DNA of 64,000 bases, taken from positions 1 through 64,000 of the forward strand of contig JAJTGR010000021.1 in NCBI GenBank assembly GCA_021299375.1. The letters run 5' to 3'. The position numbers were made by a program, and so were the translations under genes. Under the pieces are notes generated by a model. It saw nothing but the letters and a program-made list of their open reading frames with translations, was not told the DNA's origin and did not search any database. Shown here one piece after another: positions 17,254-59,866 of the stretch (position 1 is its first letter; each line of letters starts with the position of its first letter). This DNA comes from Gemmatimonadota bacterium. GTDB lineage: Bacteria; Gemmatimonadota; Gemmatimonadetes; Gemmatimonadales; Gemmatimonadaceae.

Positions 17254-17341
17254 CACACGGAGGGCACCGAGGACGGTGAGGGCATTGAGGACCTGCTTGG
17301 GCCCCCTCCGTGCCCTCACCGTCCTCCGCGCCCTCCGTGTG
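17254..17341. repeat. Inverted repeat element, copy B of the CACGGAGGGC family
   Basis: A 37-nt arm starting CACACGGAGGGCACC (17254-17290) is followed by a loop of about 14 nt and an inverted arm (17305-17341) matching at about 33 of 37 positions. It is the same unit as in the element at 10-167. It sits 35 nt beyond the stop of the dienelactone hydrolase gene, again just 3' of a minus-strand gene, so it could form a terminator-like hairpin. Confidence 0.88.
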
Positions 17342-17375
17342 AGCTGTTCAAGGTCGACCAGCCCGAGCGAGCGCC

Positions 17376-52677: not shown

Positions 52678-52705
52678 AGGGTCGACTCCAACCCCTTTGA
52701 CAGCC

Positions 52706-53455
52706 ATGCGCAGCAACAATCCCGTTCTTTCGCGTTTCGCCGAGACGGCCCGTGGTACGTTTGGCATGACGGGCACCGCGTCCATGACCGTGGCGGGTAC
52801 CGCCGGCAAGGCGGCCGTCCTGCTGGCCGTGCTGGCGTTCTCGGCCGCCCTGACCTGGTCGCAGGTGGCCGCGGGCCGCACCGACCTGGTGTTTCCGGCG
52901 ATGCTGGTGGGTGGCATCGGCGGGTTCATCCTCGCGCTCATCACCGCATTCCGCCCGCAGAGTGCGCGCTGGACCGCGCCCATCTATGCGTCGCTCGAGG
53001 GGATCTTCCTTGGGGCCATCTCCGCGCTCTACAACCTGCGGTTCGCCGGGTTGCCGCAGCAGGCGGTCCTGCTCACGATCGGCGTGGCGGCGGGCGTGTT
53101 TCTGCTCTATCGCTTCCGGGTGCTCCGCGCCACGGAAGGGTTCAAGCGCATGATGGTGGCGTCGATGATGGGTATCGGCCTGTTCTACCTCGGGTCGCTG
53201 GTCCTGTCGCTGTTCGGCGTGAACATCGGCTACTTCACCTCGTCCGGGCCGCTCGCGATCGGCGTGAACCTGGCGATTGCCGGGGTGGCGGCGCTCAACC
53301 TGGTGCTGGACTTCGATCGCATCGAGGAGGGCGTTCGCCTGGGCGCGCCCAAGGCCATGGAGTGGTTTGCGGCCTTCGGGCTCATGGTCACGCTGATCTG
53401 GCTGTATCTGGAGCTGTTGCGGCTGCTGTCACGGTTGCAGGGGCGACGGGACTGA
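52706..53455 (+). CDS. Bax inhibitor-1/YccA family integral membrane protein
   Basis: The 249-residue protein has about seven transmembrane segments, including SLEGIFLGAISALYNL, which carries the BI-1 family signature, and a C-terminal segment with LNLVLDFDRIEEGV (conserved Asp pair of the calcium-leak pore). Bacterial members are thought to be pH-sensitive ion leaks or to act with membrane proteases. The start MRSNNPVLSRF precedes a short soluble N-terminus. It is convergent with the Skp-like gene, with a terminator between. Confidence 0.9.
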   Translation: MRSNNPVLSRFAETARGTFGMTGTASMTVAGTAGKAAVLLAVLAFSAALTWSQVAAGRTDLVFPAMLVGGIGGFILALITAFRPQSARWTAPIYASLEGIFLGAISALYNLRFAGLPQQAVLLTIGVAAGVFLLYRFRVLRATEGFKRMMVASMMGIGLFYLGSLVLSLFGVNIGYFTSSGPLAIGVNLAIAGVAALNLVLDFDRIEEGVRLGAPKAMEWFAAFGLMVTLIWLYLELLRLLSRLQGRRD

Positions 53456-53492
53456 GGAGACGGCGCCGGACGTTCTGCACTCCCGAGCAAAA

Positions 53493-53534
53493 GGGGGAGG
53501 GGATCAGGGAAGACCTTCCTGAGACCCTCCCCCC
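53493..53534. terminator. Terminator between BI-1 and Skp-like genes
   Basis: A GGGGGAGGG...CCCTCCCCC stem (about 17 bp with one mismatch, about 8-nt loop) lies between convergent stops. On the minus strand it is followed by TTTT (complement of AAAA at 53489-53492), so it best terminates the Skp-like gene; it may act in both directions. Confidence 0.8.
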
Positions 53535-53541
53535 TGATGCC

Positions 53542-53592
53542 TCGGGGGGCTGCCGTGACCTACTTTGGCCACCCCGCCCGCGACACGGCCGG
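53542..53592 (-). repeat. Shared 3'-end segment, copy 1 (Skp-like gene)
   Basis: This 51-nt segment matches 54989-55039 at 47 of 51 positions. It contains the last 10 codons (PAVSRAGWPK), the TAG stop and 18 nt beyond. The two host genes are otherwise unrelated. Confidence 0.9.
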
Positions 53593-54168
53593 CCGTGACG
53601 CCCGCAACTGCCGCAGCACGGCGCTGGTGATGTCCACCCGCGCGTCGGCATCGACGACGGCGCCCTCGACCGCGAGATCGAGCACGAGGTCATAGCGCTG
53701 CTGCCGGCGCACCTCCCGCACGGCGTCTCGCACACGCTCGCGCATGGGGGCCTGGAGCTCACCGTGTCGGCGCAGGATGACCTGGTCGAGATTTGCCACC
53801 ATCTCCTCCACGAGCAGTTCCTTGGCCCGAAGGTGCAGCACCGTCGCCTCGCGCTGGCGCGGCGACAGCACCTGTTCGACGCGCGTGAATTCGTCGAGGG
53901 CCGCACGCAGGGAGTCTGTCGCGGCCGCCAGCATGGTACGGGCCTTGGTCTGTTCCAGCGCGAACTCCGACTCGGCGGCAGCACGTTCAGGCAAGGAGTC
54001 GAACACGACCCGTGAGTCGAAGACGGCGATGCGCATGGGCGGCGCCGACGGTGGCCGACGTTGTGCACTGGCCTCGGTTGCGACGAGGAAGGCCGCACAC
54101 GCCGCGAACGTCGTGTGACGGCGTGACCAGCCCGATGCGAGGCGCCGCCTCTCGGGTCGTGGCGTCAT
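53560..54168 (-). CDS. Skp/OmpH-like periplasmic chaperone family protein
   Basis: The 202-residue protein has a signal peptide ending ASAQ (about residue 36) and the OmpH pattern: MRIAVFDSRVVFDSLPERAAAE, then a long charged coiled-coil arm (about 65-150) and a C-terminal strand-helix part (YDLVLDLAVEGAVVDADARVDI). Skp holds unfolded outer-membrane proteins. The start overlaps the stop of the PH-like gene by 4 nt. The last ten residues PAVSRAGWPK are almost identical to the C-terminus of the hydrolase at 55007-56242. Confidence 0.8.
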   Translation of the reverse strand: MTPRPERRRLASGWSRRHTTFAACAAFLVATEASAQRRPPSAPPMRIAVFDSRVVFDSLPERAAAESEFALEQTKARTMLAAATDSLRAALDEFTRVEQVLSPRQREATVLHLRAKELLVEEMVANLDQVILRRHGELQAPMRERVRDAVREVRRQQRYDLVLDLAVEGAVVDADARVDITSAVLRQLRASRPAVSRAGWPK

Positions 54169-54638
54169 GAGACCTCCCCCAGCGGCAGCGGCCGCTGCTG
54201 CGGTCGACGGGCTGCCAGCTGCACGACGGCGCGTGAGAGGGCGACGAATCGCGTCGCGCTTTCCTGGTCATTCCCGTGAAGGACGTACCCCCGACCCAGC
54301 GTTTCCAATCGAACGACCGCGAGGTCGTCGTGGCACAACGCATCGATGCGCCGCACCTTGCTGGCCGGTATCCAGTGCACGCGCGCGCGCAGCCGGTCAG
54401 CATCCTCGTCGATGAGGGAGGCGGCGAGGATTCCCTCGTTGGCGACGACCCACACGGGTAGCCCGTCTCGCGTCCGACGGCCTCGTGTATGGGCGAGGAT
54501 GTGCGATCCGCGGGGCATCCAGATCTCGAGCGCCTCGCGCTCGGTCTCGGTGAGCGGGCTCTCTCGGCGCGGCACATCGCGAGCGGGCGACGAGAGGCGC
54601 AGGCGCCCACGCCAGAGGGTGTTCGATTGGTCCGACAT
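54165..54638 (-). CDS. Cytoplasmic protein of unknown function (possible PH-like domain)
   Basis: The 157-residue protein has no signal peptide. The central part (GSHILAHTRGRRTRDGLPVWVVANEGILAAS in parts, then ARVHWIPASKVRRIDA, DLAVVRLETLGRGYVLHG) has the strand pattern of bacterial PH-like (YcxB/YdcG-type) folds. The start MSDQSNTLW is chosen for GGAG 8 nt upstream; a start at 54692 is less likely. Translation is coupled to the Skp-like gene. Function unknown. Confidence 0.65.
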   Translation of the reverse strand: MSDQSNTLWRGRLRLSSPARDVPRRESPLTETEREALEIWMPRGSHILAHTRGRRTRDGLPVWVVANEGILAASLIDEDADRLRARVHWIPASKVRRIDALCHDDLAVVRLETLGRGYVLHGNDQESATRFVALSRAVVQLAARRPQQRPLPLGEVS

Positions 54639-54728
54639 CGGCGGCACTCCAGGTGAGGGCCGCGAGGCTCGTGCAAGTCGACACGAGGGCACGAGATCTC
54701 ACGGCACAGGGTGCGGTGGTCTCGCGCA

Positions 54729-54853
54729 GTACCACACGGTGACGTGTGGTACGCGGCCGACCGGAGGCGACTGCCTCGTCTTGACGATCGGCCACTCCCG
54801 CGGGCCTCGCGGGTGGCTACTCCCCATCGAATGGTGCACCGCAGTCCGCGGTG
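54729..54853. other. Cluster of three perfect hairpins in a gene-free stretch
   Basis: GTACCACAC/GTGTGGTAC (54729-54752, 9 bp, loop GGTGAC), CCCGCG/CGCGGG (54797-54813, 5-nt loop) and CACCGC/GCGGTG (54837-54853, 5-nt loop) lie in the 368-nt gap 54639-55006. They could form a structured leader of the 54638 gene, an operator, or processing sites. A G9 run is at 54949-54957. Confidence 0.5.
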
Positions 54854-54988
54854 ACCCTTGAATGATCGGACAGGTGGACGGGTGCGCGCAACGGATTCAC
54901 GGATCGATTGTTTCACCGTGATGCATTGAGTGGGGCTATGGAACGCGCGGGGGGGGGCGGGGTGGCGAGTTCCTCGGACCCCAAGGCA

Positions 54989-55039
54989 TCGGGGGGCTGC
55001 CGTGCCCTACTTCGGCCACCCCGCCTGCGACACTGCCGG
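54989..55039 (-). repeat. Shared 3'-end segment, copy 2 (hydrolase gene)
   Basis: Matches 53542-53592 at 47 of 51 positions and contains codons for PAVSQAGWPK, the TAG stop and 18 nt beyond. Confidence 0.9.
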
Positions 55040-56242
55040 CATGATCCGCAGCGCATTCTGGTAGTACACCTTCTTCAGCACCGTGTCGGGCAGATCGATG
55101 CCGTAGAGCTTCCAGAAGGCATGGTAGTCGCGGTAGTAATCGAAGTAATCGTCGCGCGTTTCGAGCACGCGCCAGTAGTACGGGTACTCCTCGGGCTGGA
55201 AGCTGTCCTTTCCGAAAAGGATGCGGTCCTGATACTTCACGAAGAAGTCGTGAGCCGCGCGCGGCTGGCGCCCGATGTCGTACAGGATTGCCCCCATTTC
55301 CCCGAGCACATTCGGCATCTCGTCGAACATCTTCCCCAACCGCCCCAGATCGTTGGCGTGCCAGCCGAGGTGTGCAGCCACGAAGGTCGTCTTCGGGTTC
55401 GCGCGGAACAGGCTGTCGCGTTCGTTCATGAGCTGCTCGAAGCTCGGAAAGCGATCCTGCGGATAGCGACGCTCGGGGAACAGCGACTGCTCGAGCCAGC
55501 GCTCGTTGGTGTAGTCGACGGCGCGGAAGAACTCCTGTGGATCGGCCGTGTGGATGAAGACGGGCAGCTTGAGGCGCGCCGCGGCCTCCCACACCGGCTT
55601 GAGTTCGGGGTCGTTGAGCGTGAGGCGTGCGCCGTCGGCCTTTTTCTGGGACAGGCCGAAGCCTTTGCCGACCTCGCCGATGCCGACCGCTCCGGCCTTC
55701 ACGTCGGCCTCCAGCTGCGCCACGGCCTTATCGGACCAACCGGGTGTGCCGACCCCATTGAAGTTGATGCCGGTGAGGAAGCGTACCCGGTCCTTCATCG
55801 TGGGTGAGCTGTTCACGAGGTTCACACCCTGCACGAGCCGGTCGCCGGACACGTTGCCCGCCACGATCATGAGGCGCACGTTGAGCGAATCGAGCGTCGG
55901 GCCGAAGCGTGCGAGGGCGTCGGCGCTCCCGATCTGTGCCGCGCCAGGGTGGCCGTGGAAGTCGACCACCGGGAATTTCGCCTTCCAGCGCAGGCCGGTG
56001 GCGGGCACCTTGAGCGTCGACTTGGGGCGATAGTCCACGATGCTTGGCACCGGCCCTTCGGGCGCGAGGCAGGTGCGCGGCCGGATCTCGGTCGTACCCG
56101 GTGGGCACTCCTCACCGGGCTTGATCTGGGTGCCCCCGCGGAACCCCTGCGCCAAGACGCGCGCCGGCGAGGCAACGGTCAGCAGGGAGACCGTACAGGC
56201 GGTGACGACAAGAACGGCGGACAGACGAAGCGATCGGCGCAC
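55007..56242 (-). CDS. Exported amidohydrolase-type metal-dependent hydrolase
   Basis: The 411-residue protein has a signal peptide (cleavage near VLAQ, about 31) and a TIM barrel of the amidohydrolase 2 (ACMSD-like) class. Metal ligands are visible: HxH in VDFHGHPG, His in VFIHTADP, His in VAAHLGWH, and Asp in LFGKDSF. GVGEVGKGFG-like sequence (GAVGIGEVGKGFG) precedes the central His. Substrate is unknown; relatives hydrolyse or decarboxylate small carboxylates. The GTG start has GGAG 8 nt upstream. The C-terminal 10 residues and following 18 nt are shared with the Skp-like gene. Confidence 0.87.
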   Translation of the reverse strand: MRRSLRLSAVLVVTACTVSLLTVASPARVLAQGFRGGTQIKPGEECPPGTTEIRPRTCLAPEGPVPSIVDYRPKSTLKVPATGLRWKAKFPVVDFHGHPGAAQIGSADALARFGPTLDSLNVRLMIVAGNVSGDRLVQGVNLVNSSPTMKDRVRFLTGINFNGVGTPGWSDKAVAQLEADVKAGAVGIGEVGKGFGLSQKKADGARLTLNDPELKPVWEAAARLKLPVFIHTADPQEFFRAVDYTNERWLEQSLFPERRYPQDRFPSFEQLMNERDSLFRANPKTTFVAAHLGWHANDLGRLGKMFDEMPNVLGEMGAILYDIGRQPRAAHDFFVKYQDRILFGKDSFQPEEYPYYWRVLETRDDYFDYYRDYHAFWKLYGIDLPDTVLKKVYYQNALRIMPAVSQAGWPK

Positions 56243-56375: not shown

Positions 56376-57587
56376 CTACGGGGCAGGCACGAAAGGCGTT
56401 CGCGGTCCCCGCCGCAGCACGCGCGGCAGGCGCGTGTCGAACCGGCTGTCCCAGGTGCCAGCCAGTGAGTCTCCCTGCAGGCGCCCGCTGAAGAGGGCTG
56501 CCGTATCGGCGCTCGAGCGCGTCGCGAGCACGGCCAGTCGCAGGTTGTCCCCTTGGAGCGTCCCGAGGACGAACTGCTCGGGAGCGCTGCGACGCCCGCT
56601 GACGGACGCGACGGAGGGGCCCGCCGCGTCAATCCAGAGCTCGAGCGTGACCGGCTGCCCGTCGGCCGTGGTCCCGCGCCATGCTGCATCGAGGGGGGCG
56701 CGGTCGCGGTCGGTGACCGTAACCTCGCGCCGCACGAGCCCCACCATGCTGCCGAAGAGTCCGAGGCCGCCGCGGACGCTGCTGATGAGGCCTGTGCCGC
56801 CGAACGGATCGTTCCCCGAGCGGTTGTAGTCGTAGAAGTTGCGGTCGACCGCCACCACGCTCACCACCTGACGAAATCCGGGCAGCCACACCGACGGCAG
56901 CCCGTCGGCCAGAAAGTTGCGCAGTGACCCGGACAGCGCGAAGCGCGTGCTATCGGAAAACAGCGCCCAGGGGCCGAACGGCGTCTCGACGCGCACGGCG
57001 TAGGTGCGGGCGCCGGACACCGGAGTCCACGTGAGCTGCAGGGTGTCGCGGTCTCGCGCGAACGCCACGGGGGTCGCCTGAGTCCCGCCGCCGGGCGTCC
57101 ACGCGAGAGGCGCCCCAGGCACCTGGGTCTCGCCCGTCACCTCGCGGCCGTCGGCGGTCCGCACACGGAGCCGATAGCGCGTGCCTGGGCGGATGGCGAG
57201 CGCGTGCGCTGGCACGACGTACCGTCCCGTACCACGTCCCGACACGCGCGTCTCCTCGGCACTCACGCCGTTGGTGTCCGCGTCGGTGAGGAGCCGGACC
57301 GAGGCGCCGGAGAGCGGCTCGCCGCCGGCCGAACGGATGGGGTCGAGCGGGTCGAAGCGCACGGTGGAGTCGATGCGTACGCGCCCGGTGAGCGACGACT
57401 CCACGAGGATCACCTGTTCATCGGCATCGGCATTGAGCACGGCATGCACCACCACCTGCGGCGCGGGCGGTGCGACGTTGACGGCGTCGAGTTCGCAGCC
57501 GCTCAGCAGCACGCCCACGAGAATCGTGGCGGTGACGCGCGACGGCAGGCGCCACGCATCGGGTGTCGCAGCGCGCCGGGTCACCAT
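56376..57587 (-). CDS. DUF4249-like lipoprotein paired with TonB receptor
   Basis: The 403-residue protein has a lipoprotein signal (ILVGVLLSGCEL, Cys about 31) and beta-rich Ig/fibronectin-like sequence: QVVVHAVLNADADEQVILVE, LSGASVRLLTDAD, GTRYRLRVRTADGREVTGET and WTPVSGARTYAVRVET. The pattern fits DUF4249 proteins, which sit beside TonB receptors in Bacteroidota. The start overlaps the receptor stop by 7 nt, so the products are made together. It probably caps or assists the receptor at the outer membrane. Ligand unknown. Confidence 0.75.
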   Translation of the reverse strand: MVTRRAATPDAWRLPSRVTATILVGVLLSGCELDAVNVAPPAPQVVVHAVLNADADEQVILVESSLTGRVRIDSTVRFDPLDPIRSAGGEPLSGASVRLLTDADTNGVSAEETRVSGRGTGRYVVPAHALAIRPGTRYRLRVRTADGREVTGETQVPGAPLAWTPGGGTQATPVAFARDRDTLQLTWTPVSGARTYAVRVETPFGPWALFSDSTRFALSGSLRNFLADGLPSVWLPGFRQVVSVVAVDRNFYDYNRSGNDPFGGTGLISSVRGGLGLFGSMVGLVRREVTVTDRDRAPLDAAWRGTTADGQPVTLELWIDAAGPSVASVSGRRSAPEQFVLGTLQGDNLRLAVLATRSSADTAALFSGRLQGDSLAGTWDSRFDTRLPRVLRRGPRTPFVPAP

Positions 57588-59866
57588 GAGACTGTCACGC
57601 CGACGGTGGGCAACAGCGGGAACTGCGAGAACGCCGTACGGGTGGGTGGGTTGGCTGCATAGTCGAACACGTACGTGAACACGTTGCGCGCGTTGTAGGC
57701 GTTGATGAGCGACAGGTAAGGCGCCCATGTGCGGCGCCCCGGCCGCGCATAGGTGGCGCTGAGGTCGAGCCGCTGTACCAGTGGAAAGCGGGCCGCGTTG
57801 CGTACACCGCCGATGGGCTCGCGCGACACCGGGAGGTTGCCGGTGCTGAAGCTGTTGGTGAGCGGATCGTAGCGGCGTCGCACGAGTTGCCCCACCACAT
57901 CGGTGTACGGCGTCCCGGTGCCCACCCCGAGTCGCACCCCGTAGCTGAGACGCCCACCCGGTCGGAACGACGTCACCACATTGAGGTTGTGTCGCCGGTC
58001 CTGCACCGGGGCGAAGCGCCCGTCCGGTCCCTCACGCCAGCTCACCGCGTACGAATACGCAATCCACCCCGACAGCCGCTCGCGCTCGAGTTGCCGCACC
58101 AGCAGGTCGGCGCCATAGGAGCGCCCGGTGGTGACGATGAACTCGTCGCCCTGCACATCGGGATCGTTGAAGAGGTTCGAGGACGGCAGGCGGTCGTACG
58201 TCTTGAGCCACGTTTCGACCCGTACGAAGCGCGAGCGGGTGAGCCAGCGTTCGGCGCCCGTGCTTACCTGCCAGGACCGAGCCACGGGGGTGCTGCGGTT
58301 GCTCACCAGCCAGAAGTCGAACACGCGCACCGGCGCCTGCTCGTTGCGCAGCGCCGGCGTCCACTGCGTGGTCTGCCCGGCGGCCAGCGTGAAGGCGAGA
58401 TCCGGGGTGGCGAACCACTTGAGCGACGCGCGCGGTGAGAGCCCCTGCCAGCCCGTCCCGGTGACCGTTTCACCTCGTACGCCGGCCCGCGCCGTCACCC
58501 GCGAGGCGCGCACCGTGTGGTCCACATACACGCTCGCCGCGCTGGGCCGCAGCGCCAGCCCGAGGATGCCCGGTGTGCCAGCGGCATCGGCGTCCACATC
58601 GAAGCGCATGCGGTACGCCGACCATTCGTAGCCGACGAGCGTTTCGTGGCGACCGCGCCACCGTGCCACCTCACCCCAGGCGCGCGTCTCATTGAGATTG
58701 TTGACGAAACGCAGCGTGCCCGACCCGAGGTCGAGCGTGGTGCCAAAGCCTGTGAGCGACAACCGCTGCATGACGCGCGCCGAATCGCCGCCGAGCGGTC
58801 GTGCGAGCGGTTGGGTGAAAGCAAGGCCCAGCAGCGAATTGCCCCAGTCGAAGCGCAGGCGCCCACCACCGGCCTGCGTCGAGTCGCCGAATGCGGCGAG
58901 GGACGCGTCGAGCACGTCGCGCCCCCAGTAGCCGGTGGCGCTCAGCGTTCCGCCCCCCGGCAGCTGGTGCCGCACGTGCGCCTGCAGGTCGGTGAAGGCG
59001 TACGGCAGCTGGTTGTCGGTGAAGAGCGCCACGAACCGGTCGGCGTAGGTCCGTCGCGCCGCCACGTTCCAGCTGGTGGCGCCGCGAACCGTCCCGCCCA
59101 ACGCCACCGTGCTGGCCAGCAGCGACACCCCCACCGACCCGTGCACCCCACGGCGCGCCTCGGCCTTGGGCACCACGTTCAGTACGCTCGACAGTCGCGT
59201 GCCGTACCGCGCCGGGAAGCCCCCGGGCAGGAGTTCGAACTCCCCCACGGTTTCGTCAATGAACGTGCCGAACAGACCACCGAGGTGAAACGGGTTGTAG
59301 ATCGGGAACCCGTCGAGCAGCACGAGGTTCTGGTCGCTTTCGCCGCCGCGGACATTGTAGCCGGCGGTGAAGTCGTTGGTGGCCACCACGCCCGGGAGCA
59401 GCTGCACCACCCGCAGCACGTCGGGCTCGCCGATGACGGGGACGCGCTTGATCGTCTCACCGCGTACGCTCACCACGCCCGGACTGCCAGAGAGGCGAAA
59501 CTGCTCGCGTTCGGCCGCCTCCGCGGCCACCGTCACGGCCGTCAGCTGCGTGGTGCTGGGCGAGAGCGCGACGTCAAGGGTGGTCGGGGTACCGGCGCGC
59601 ACGTCGACCTCGCGCGTGACCGGCGTGTATCCCACGCGCGCAAACACGATCGTGGCGCGTGCGGCCGGCAGCCCAGTCAGCACGTAGCGCCCGTCCTCAC
59701 CGCTCAAGGTCCCGGTGCGGGTTCCGCGCAGCACGACCGAGACGGCCGCCACCGGATCGCGCGTGGTGGCGTCTACGACCCGGCCGCGCAGCTCCCCAAC
59801 AGAATCGGGGCGCGCGGCCGGTGGCTGGCCCACGGCCAGCAGCATCAGCACGGTTGTCCAACTCAT
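57581..59866 (-). CDS. TonB-dependent receptor with carboxypeptidase-regulatory-like N-terminal domain
   Basis: The 761-residue protein has a short signal peptide, a carboxypeptidase D regulatory-like domain (ELRGRVVDATTRDPVAAVSVVLRG, GEDGRYVLTGLP), a plug (RVVQLLPGVVATNDFTAGYNVRGG in parts, DGFPIYNPFHLGG, LLPGGFPARYG) and a barrel ending with TVGVTVSW. The terminal aromatic is typical of outer-membrane insertion. The architecture is Bacteroidota/Gemmatimonadota SusC-like in its N-terminal domain but of normal receptor length. The following lipoprotein gene overlaps its end. Confidence 0.92.
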   Translation of the reverse strand: MSWTTVLMLLAVGQPPAARPDSVGELRGRVVDATTRDPVAAVSVVLRGTRTGTLSGEDGRYVLTGLPAARATIVFARVGYTPVTREVDVRAGTPTTLDVALSPSTTQLTAVTVAAEAAEREQFRLSGSPGVVSVRGETIKRVPVIGEPDVLRVVQLLPGVVATNDFTAGYNVRGGESDQNLVLLDGFPIYNPFHLGGLFGTFIDETVGEFELLPGGFPARYGTRLSSVLNVVPKAEARRGVHGSVGVSLLASTVALGGTVRGATSWNVAARRTYADRFVALFTDNQLPYAFTDLQAHVRHQLPGGGTLSATGYWGRDVLDASLAAFGDSTQAGGGRLRFDWGNSLLGLAFTQPLARPLGGDSARVMQRLSLTGFGTTLDLGSGTLRFVNNLNETRAWGEVARWRGRHETLVGYEWSAYRMRFDVDADAAGTPGILGLALRPSAASVYVDHTVRASRVTARAGVRGETVTGTGWQGLSPRASLKWFATPDLAFTLAAGQTTQWTPALRNEQAPVRVFDFWLVSNRSTPVARSWQVSTGAERWLTRSRFVRVETWLKTYDRLPSSNLFNDPDVQGDEFIVTTGRSYGADLLVRQLERERLSGWIAYSYAVSWREGPDGRFAPVQDRRHNLNVVTSFRPGGRLSYGVRLGVGTGTPYTDVVGQLVRRRYDPLTNSFSTGNLPVSREPIGGVRNAARFPLVQRLDLSATYARPGRRTWAPYLSLINAYNARNVFTYVFDYAANPPTRTAFSQFPLLPTVGVTVSW

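Follow-up and report, generated by a model that had tools for sequence, protein, structure and literature searches.

A shared gene end in a Gemmatimonadota genome looks like a recent recombination scar next to a probable divergent manganese riboswitch

Why should an amidohydrolase and a Skp-like chaperone end in nearly the same nucleotides? We followed up this question in a 64,000-nt stretch of DNA from a Gemmatimonadota bacterium (the window; its genome is G000 below). A preliminary description had reported near-identical 3′ ends for a Skp-like gene and a metal hydrolase gene, and had offered two possible causes: a gene end was copied through partial duplication or recombination, or a C-terminal tag and 3′ UTR element shared by both genes is under selection. 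The match is indeed present at that place with a spacing of 1447, and the two genes are unrelated as described, falling into different families (Amidohydro_2 and OmpH). The features involved are as follows.

55007-56242, minus strand: amidohydrolase (Amidohydro_2, PF04909), by Pfam domain match
53560-54168, minus strand: OmpH2, a second OmpH/Skp-like chaperone paralogue (PF03938), by domain match and orthologue comparison
54979-55040, strand given as (.): repeat copy 1, covering the amidohydrolase 3′ end, TAG stop, and first part of the 3′ UTR
53532-53593, strand given as (.): repeat copy 2, an in-frame fusion to OmpH2 comprising the tail PAVSRAGWPK, stop, and start of the UTR

Our answer has two parts, and we consider it likely that both hold together: the repeat is a recombination scar, and a leader RNA lying between its copies is either a divergent Mn2+ (yybP-ykoY) riboswitch or an RNA closely related to that class.

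The direct repeat spans 62 nt on the same strand, with 54 of 62 positions identical (87%). Its 52-nt core, GCCGGC...CCCCCCGA, contains 4 mismatches, in agreement with the 47 of 51 nt given previously. Local alignment scored 46, whereas shuffled sequences reached 23 at most. A 35-nt core pattern in which two positions were left free had 2 exact matches in the window vs. 0 in 100 shuffles. Homology starts with GCCGGC ~10 codons 5′ of the stop and ends ~25 nt 3′ of it; this end is abrupt, with no alignment further downstream (p 0.12). The preliminary description had proposed a genome search for further copies of the block and further AGWPK proteins. Across the 4.48-Mb assembly we found no third copy, the next match being 18 nt long (E 0.02), and [A/G]GWPK followed by a stop ends only the amidohydrolase and OmpH2 genes. 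A dispersed (REP-like) repeat family was ruled out, as just two copies exist in the genome.

To which gene did the tail first belong? Most of 30 genus genomes have an amidohydrolase orthologue, with GWPK, GFPK, or a near variant at its C-terminus, and more distant orthologues share this ending. Ten of these 30 genomes carry OmpH2, and the tail was absent from all nine orthologues compared. These align with OmpH2 (202 residues) only to about residue 190-200, beyond which they have short basic tails of unrelated sequence, for example ARSPNGR, SAARK, and PVADARHR. The comparison of homologues therefore separates the two families, which do not both naturally end in AGWPK: the tail is conserved in amidohydrolase orthologues and absent from OmpH2 orthologues, which indicates copying from the amidohydrolase to OmpH2. 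Judging from the GWPK/GFPK ends of its orthologues, repeat copy 1 is the side of the tail's original owner; the OmpH2 tail PAVSRAGWPK is, by its absence from the nine orthologues, acquired. The segment that it replaced is, by the same alignments, an unconserved one, and OmpH2 would tolerate the tail because OmpH2 C-termini are variable. When the 3′ UTRs of relatives were compared with either repeat copy, nothing convincing emerged (40 comparisons, best p 0.03). Since no relative's 3′ UTR convincingly resembles either copy, the copying postdates the divergence of G000 from all species sampled. Thus, of the two causes originally offered, copying of a gene end gains support, with the amidohydrolase as donor and OmpH2 as recipient.

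How the copy arose can be considered from the neighboring genes and their order in relatives.

54165-54692, minus strand: orf175, first gene of the orf175-ompH2 operon, function unassigned, no Pfam match; an in-frame ATG at 54638 is the likelier start
52688-53455, plus strand: BI-1 gene (BaxI_1), ancestral downstream neighbor of the amidohydrolase
53488-53539, minus strand: strong hairpin, then CTTTTGC (z -2.9 for the fold of 53470-53562), likely the terminator between ompH2 and BI-1; not called by a consensus scan

In many relatives, the amidohydrolase lies directly next to the convergent BI-1 gene with no block between them. The orf175-ompH2 pair occupies this position in G000 and in two further genomes, G005 and G015, while several other species carry the pair elsewhere in the genome. 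Downstream of ompH2 in G000, the tail and stop are followed by ~100 nt with the strong hairpin and then BI-1, a layout resembling the usual amidohydrolase-BI-1 junction.

Taken together, the repeat looks like a recent recombination scar, an ordinary explanation. The usual genus order is amidohydrolase then BI-1, as relatives show, and the orf175-ompH2 block with its leader is found between them in G000, G005, and G015. In the G000 lineage alone, a junction would have formed at the microhomology GCCGGC, which is found at one side, where a shortened ompH2 that lacks the final codons was fused in frame to an additional copy of the amidohydrolase 3′ end, such that OmpH2 now has the tail and stop of the amidohydrolase. 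The block thus sits with a copy of the amidohydrolase tail on either side, and a dispensable OmpH2 C-terminus would have been replaced. While the structure of the scar is directly visible, for its mechanism we infer illegitimate recombination or template switching, with an allele carrying the block and one lacking it as possible partners. Homology-facilitated illegitimate recombination (PMC6382021 and works cited there) is known to link DNA segments that differ in allele or origin. It would resemble the present case in having short microhomology at one junction beside longer homology, although here the process is read from static sequence only. Non-homologous end joining was rejected as the mechanism, as no Ku gene was found. 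We also note a perfect 11-bp inverted repeat (54956-54966 / 55015-55025, GGCGGGGTGGC / GCCACCCCGCC) linking the tail of the amidohydrolase with the spacer behind it; its fold is not significant (z -0.4), and it might reflect past template switching or simply chance. Long palindromic repeats of the CTCTGCGCCTCTGCG type occur just 3′ of the amidohydrolase stop in several related species (L031, L033, L034, L036).

The main rival to a single-junction scar is a gene-conversion patch, in which the block was already in place, as in G005 and G015, and the end of ompH2 was later overwritten by short templated copying. We regard this as a serious possibility, if the less probable one. G005 and G015 do share the gene order with an unpatched ompH2 end, and their orf175 leader is homologous to that of G000. 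However, the spacer 3′ of ompH2 is not homologous between G000 and G005/G015, and trees of BI-1 and DUF2723 reject a clade of G000 with G005/G015, instead grouping G000 with G004, G001, and G022 at moderate support. The non-homologous spacer and the rejected clade suggest that the block was probably not simply inherited along with its surroundings. We found no homologue of this spacer that would decide the order of events. On the other side of the amidohydrolase, a TonB receptor gene and a DUF4249 gene (56376-59866) lie between it and DUF2723 only in G000, G005, and G015. Extra blocks therefore flank the amidohydrolase on both sides in these genomes, though they are not sister species.

The second of the causes originally offered, a shared C-terminal tag or 3′ UTR element under selection (as a localization tag, sRNA target, or mRNA stability element), fared poorly, and we think it very improbable. 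Reading frame, stop, and UTR are all retained at ~92%, as such an element would favor. Yet there are only two copies, no other protein in the genome ends in AGWPK, no OmpH2 orthologue carries the tail, and OmpH2 C-termini are unconserved. Moreover, UTRs are not conserved between species, the few differences between the copies occur in both coding and non-coding parts, and the 62-mer folds no better than shuffles, so that a hairpin function of its own was rejected. Site-specific integration of a mobile element at the amidohydrolase 3′ end, with the gene end restored, would fit a 1.4-kb segment bounded by direct repeats at a gene's 3′ end. But the segment holds only orf175 and ompH2, with no integrase, transposase, or terminal inverted repeats, and the ompH2 loci of six other genomes lack flanking repeats, so there is little reason to expect that an element of this kind was involved. 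Also very improbable is an assembly artefact joining two strains or loci at the repeat: the genome is a draft of 116 contigs, but the copies are not identical (8 of 62 positions differ), two further genomes show the same gene order, and a 6-nt junction microhomology is too short for an assembler join.

Returning to the scar as the preferred reading of the repeat, what does the block that it delimits carry? Between the two copies lies a leader RNA overlooked in the preliminary description.

54714-54831, minus strand: leader RNA with a Mn2+-riboswitch-like aptamer (54749-54831 matched by the core model) and 3′ switch strand GCGAGACC near 54720
54690-54727, minus strand: predicted downstream hairpin reusing the 3′ switch strand (fold of 54690-54835, z -4.5), a candidate expression platform by its predicted fold, with no U-run

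Across species, the orf175 leader shows good conservation. In a pattern search, the element was found upstream of all nine OmpH2 operons with upstream sequence, whatever their genome position. A covariance model built from five sequences, leaving out the window copy, recovered that copy (E 1e-13) as well as those of the other four genomes (E 1e-10 to 1e-14), far ahead of the next matches at E 0.02. Compensatory changes affect 11 of 24 pairs in a ten-sequence alignment and 21 of 24 in a 24-sequence alignment, and covariation in the latter is 0.78 vs. 0.22 when shuffled and ≤0.15 when slid; fitting the alignment to the model favors such pair counts, yet sliding gives far lower values. The top pair of helix P1 is G-C in 99 of 99 leaders, while its lower pairs are formed in 97/83/88% vs. 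57/66/75% with shuffled partners and covary. A downstream complement to the 3′ strand follows at 84 of 99 loci, with T-rich sequence next in 64 of these. The HtpX leader of G000 has its switch strand within a terminator-like hairpin ending in TTTTTT. Because the orf175 leader hairpin has no U-run, control there may instead be translational or Rho-dependent.

Leader searches were based on core models R1 to R3, and the third (R3) has matches in 80 of 395 Gemmatimonadota genomes from several families. Among 99 located copies, HtpX was the first recognizable gene downstream of 45 and TerC of 29. Another 10 copies precede orf175 or OmpH2, 7 a secreted protein, 4 an SPFH protein, and 1 a universal-stress-like protein. 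The remaining three were unclassified: one precedes a P-type cation ATPase, another a cation-efflux (CDF) transporter, and the locus of the third extends past the sequence stretch examined. The genome under study has three copies, before orf175-ompH2, a secreted protein (C36:16512), and HtpX (C108:13330).

We read the leader as a probable divergent form, or a close relative, of the Mn2+ (yybP-ykoY) riboswitch. Rfam family RF00080 scored leader copies at 13.6, 18.0, 10.3, 14.8, 32.3, and 21.7 bits, and no copy scanned reached the curated gathering threshold of 45 bits; the HtpX-type copy L271 gave no match. These matches appeared only in short-window scans, a scan over 4.5 kb having missed the leader. 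Because RF00080 recurs but always below its cut-off, the leader would appear to work like a Mn2+ riboswitch without being filed under this family. The likeness extends to several parts. The loop GGGGAGUAG aligns with the RF00080 consensus, and a combination of GGGAGUAG, CGUCA, and GAGAC located the element at 99 of 102 loci. The leader also has two G-C pairs at the top of the P1.1 switch helix, corresponding to G5/G6 with C95/C96 in the Lactococcus lactis riboswitch (PMC11087558), a hairpin with a CGUCA...AC internal loop, and a 3′ strand that would compete with a downstream terminator. By contrast, the internal loop (second docking loop) reads CGUCANNAC in 98 of 99 copies, where the RF00080 consensus is CAACAUAC, the two being alignable but not identical. 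Targets likewise show both sides: the Mn2+ homeostasis genes TerC, P-type ATPase, and CDF follow 29, 1, and 1 of the 99 copies, whereas HtpX is the main target, accompanied by Skp-like, SPFH, and secreted proteins.

In the known class, P1.1 is stabilized by Mn2+ and the terminator is thereby prevented (PMC11087558). If the leader behaves alike, Mn2+ would stabilize the P1 switch helix, keeping the 3′ strand out of the downstream terminator or sequestering hairpin, and the orf175-ompH2 operon would be on. Leader structure and targets are computed here, while ligand and direction of switching are carried over by analogy from the known class. The leader could instead sense another signal, such as a different metal or envelope stress. 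Envelope quality-control genes (HtpX, SPFH, Skp-like) among its targets, the divergent internal loop, and the sub-threshold scores would all accommodate this. Still, we consider it unlikely, given TerC, the P-type cation ATPase, and the CDF exporter among the targets, and a loop and GG/CC helix top as in the Mn2+ class. Our literature search found no paper on a manganese riboswitch in Gemmatimonadota, and a search for yybP-ykoY with htpX found only a study of TerC and secretion (PMC10550928).

In that study, HtpX, flotillin, and PrsA, a post-translocation chaperone, co-purified with the TerC proteins of Bacillus subtilis. The leader type described here precedes genes for TerC, HtpX, a Skp-like chaperone, and an SPFH protein. 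The Bacillus set is a physical association, whereas ours is a computed shared leader, mostly in different genomes. Even so, the match between leader-associated genes and the kinds of TerC partners suggests, from gene context only, a Mn2+-controlled set for metal export and envelope quality control. We lean, by a small measure, towards a broader reading: in Gemmatimonadota, a divergent and unannotated Mn2+ riboswitch class couples manganese export (TerC, CDF, P-type ATPase) with envelope quality control (HtpX, the Skp-like chaperone paralogue, and the SPFH protein), mirroring the TerC partners of Bacillus and including the orf175-ompH2 operon as a new riboswitch target.

The repeat is a clean example of a bacterial protein C-terminus being swapped via recombination, which is of modest interest. 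The leader RNA, not previously annotated, outweighs it as a finding. If our reading is true, the known range of the Mn2+ riboswitch would grow to include a phylum in which the Rfam threshold misses the examined copies, and HtpX and a Skp-like chaperone would join its targets. A shared Mn2+ switch would also make the idea of metal supply and secretion quality control as one system directly testable.

Among the proteins behind the leader RNA in several Gemmatimonas genomes is a secreted family of 254-276 aa (L252:1707-2534, loci L260-L265), which has no Pfam match and whose mature part begins near QQTVINAPSVDQT. Elsewhere in the window, a low-complexity repeat of the CCTCCGTGCCCTC type occurs as two 40-nt copies (88%) at 131-170 and 17305-17344.
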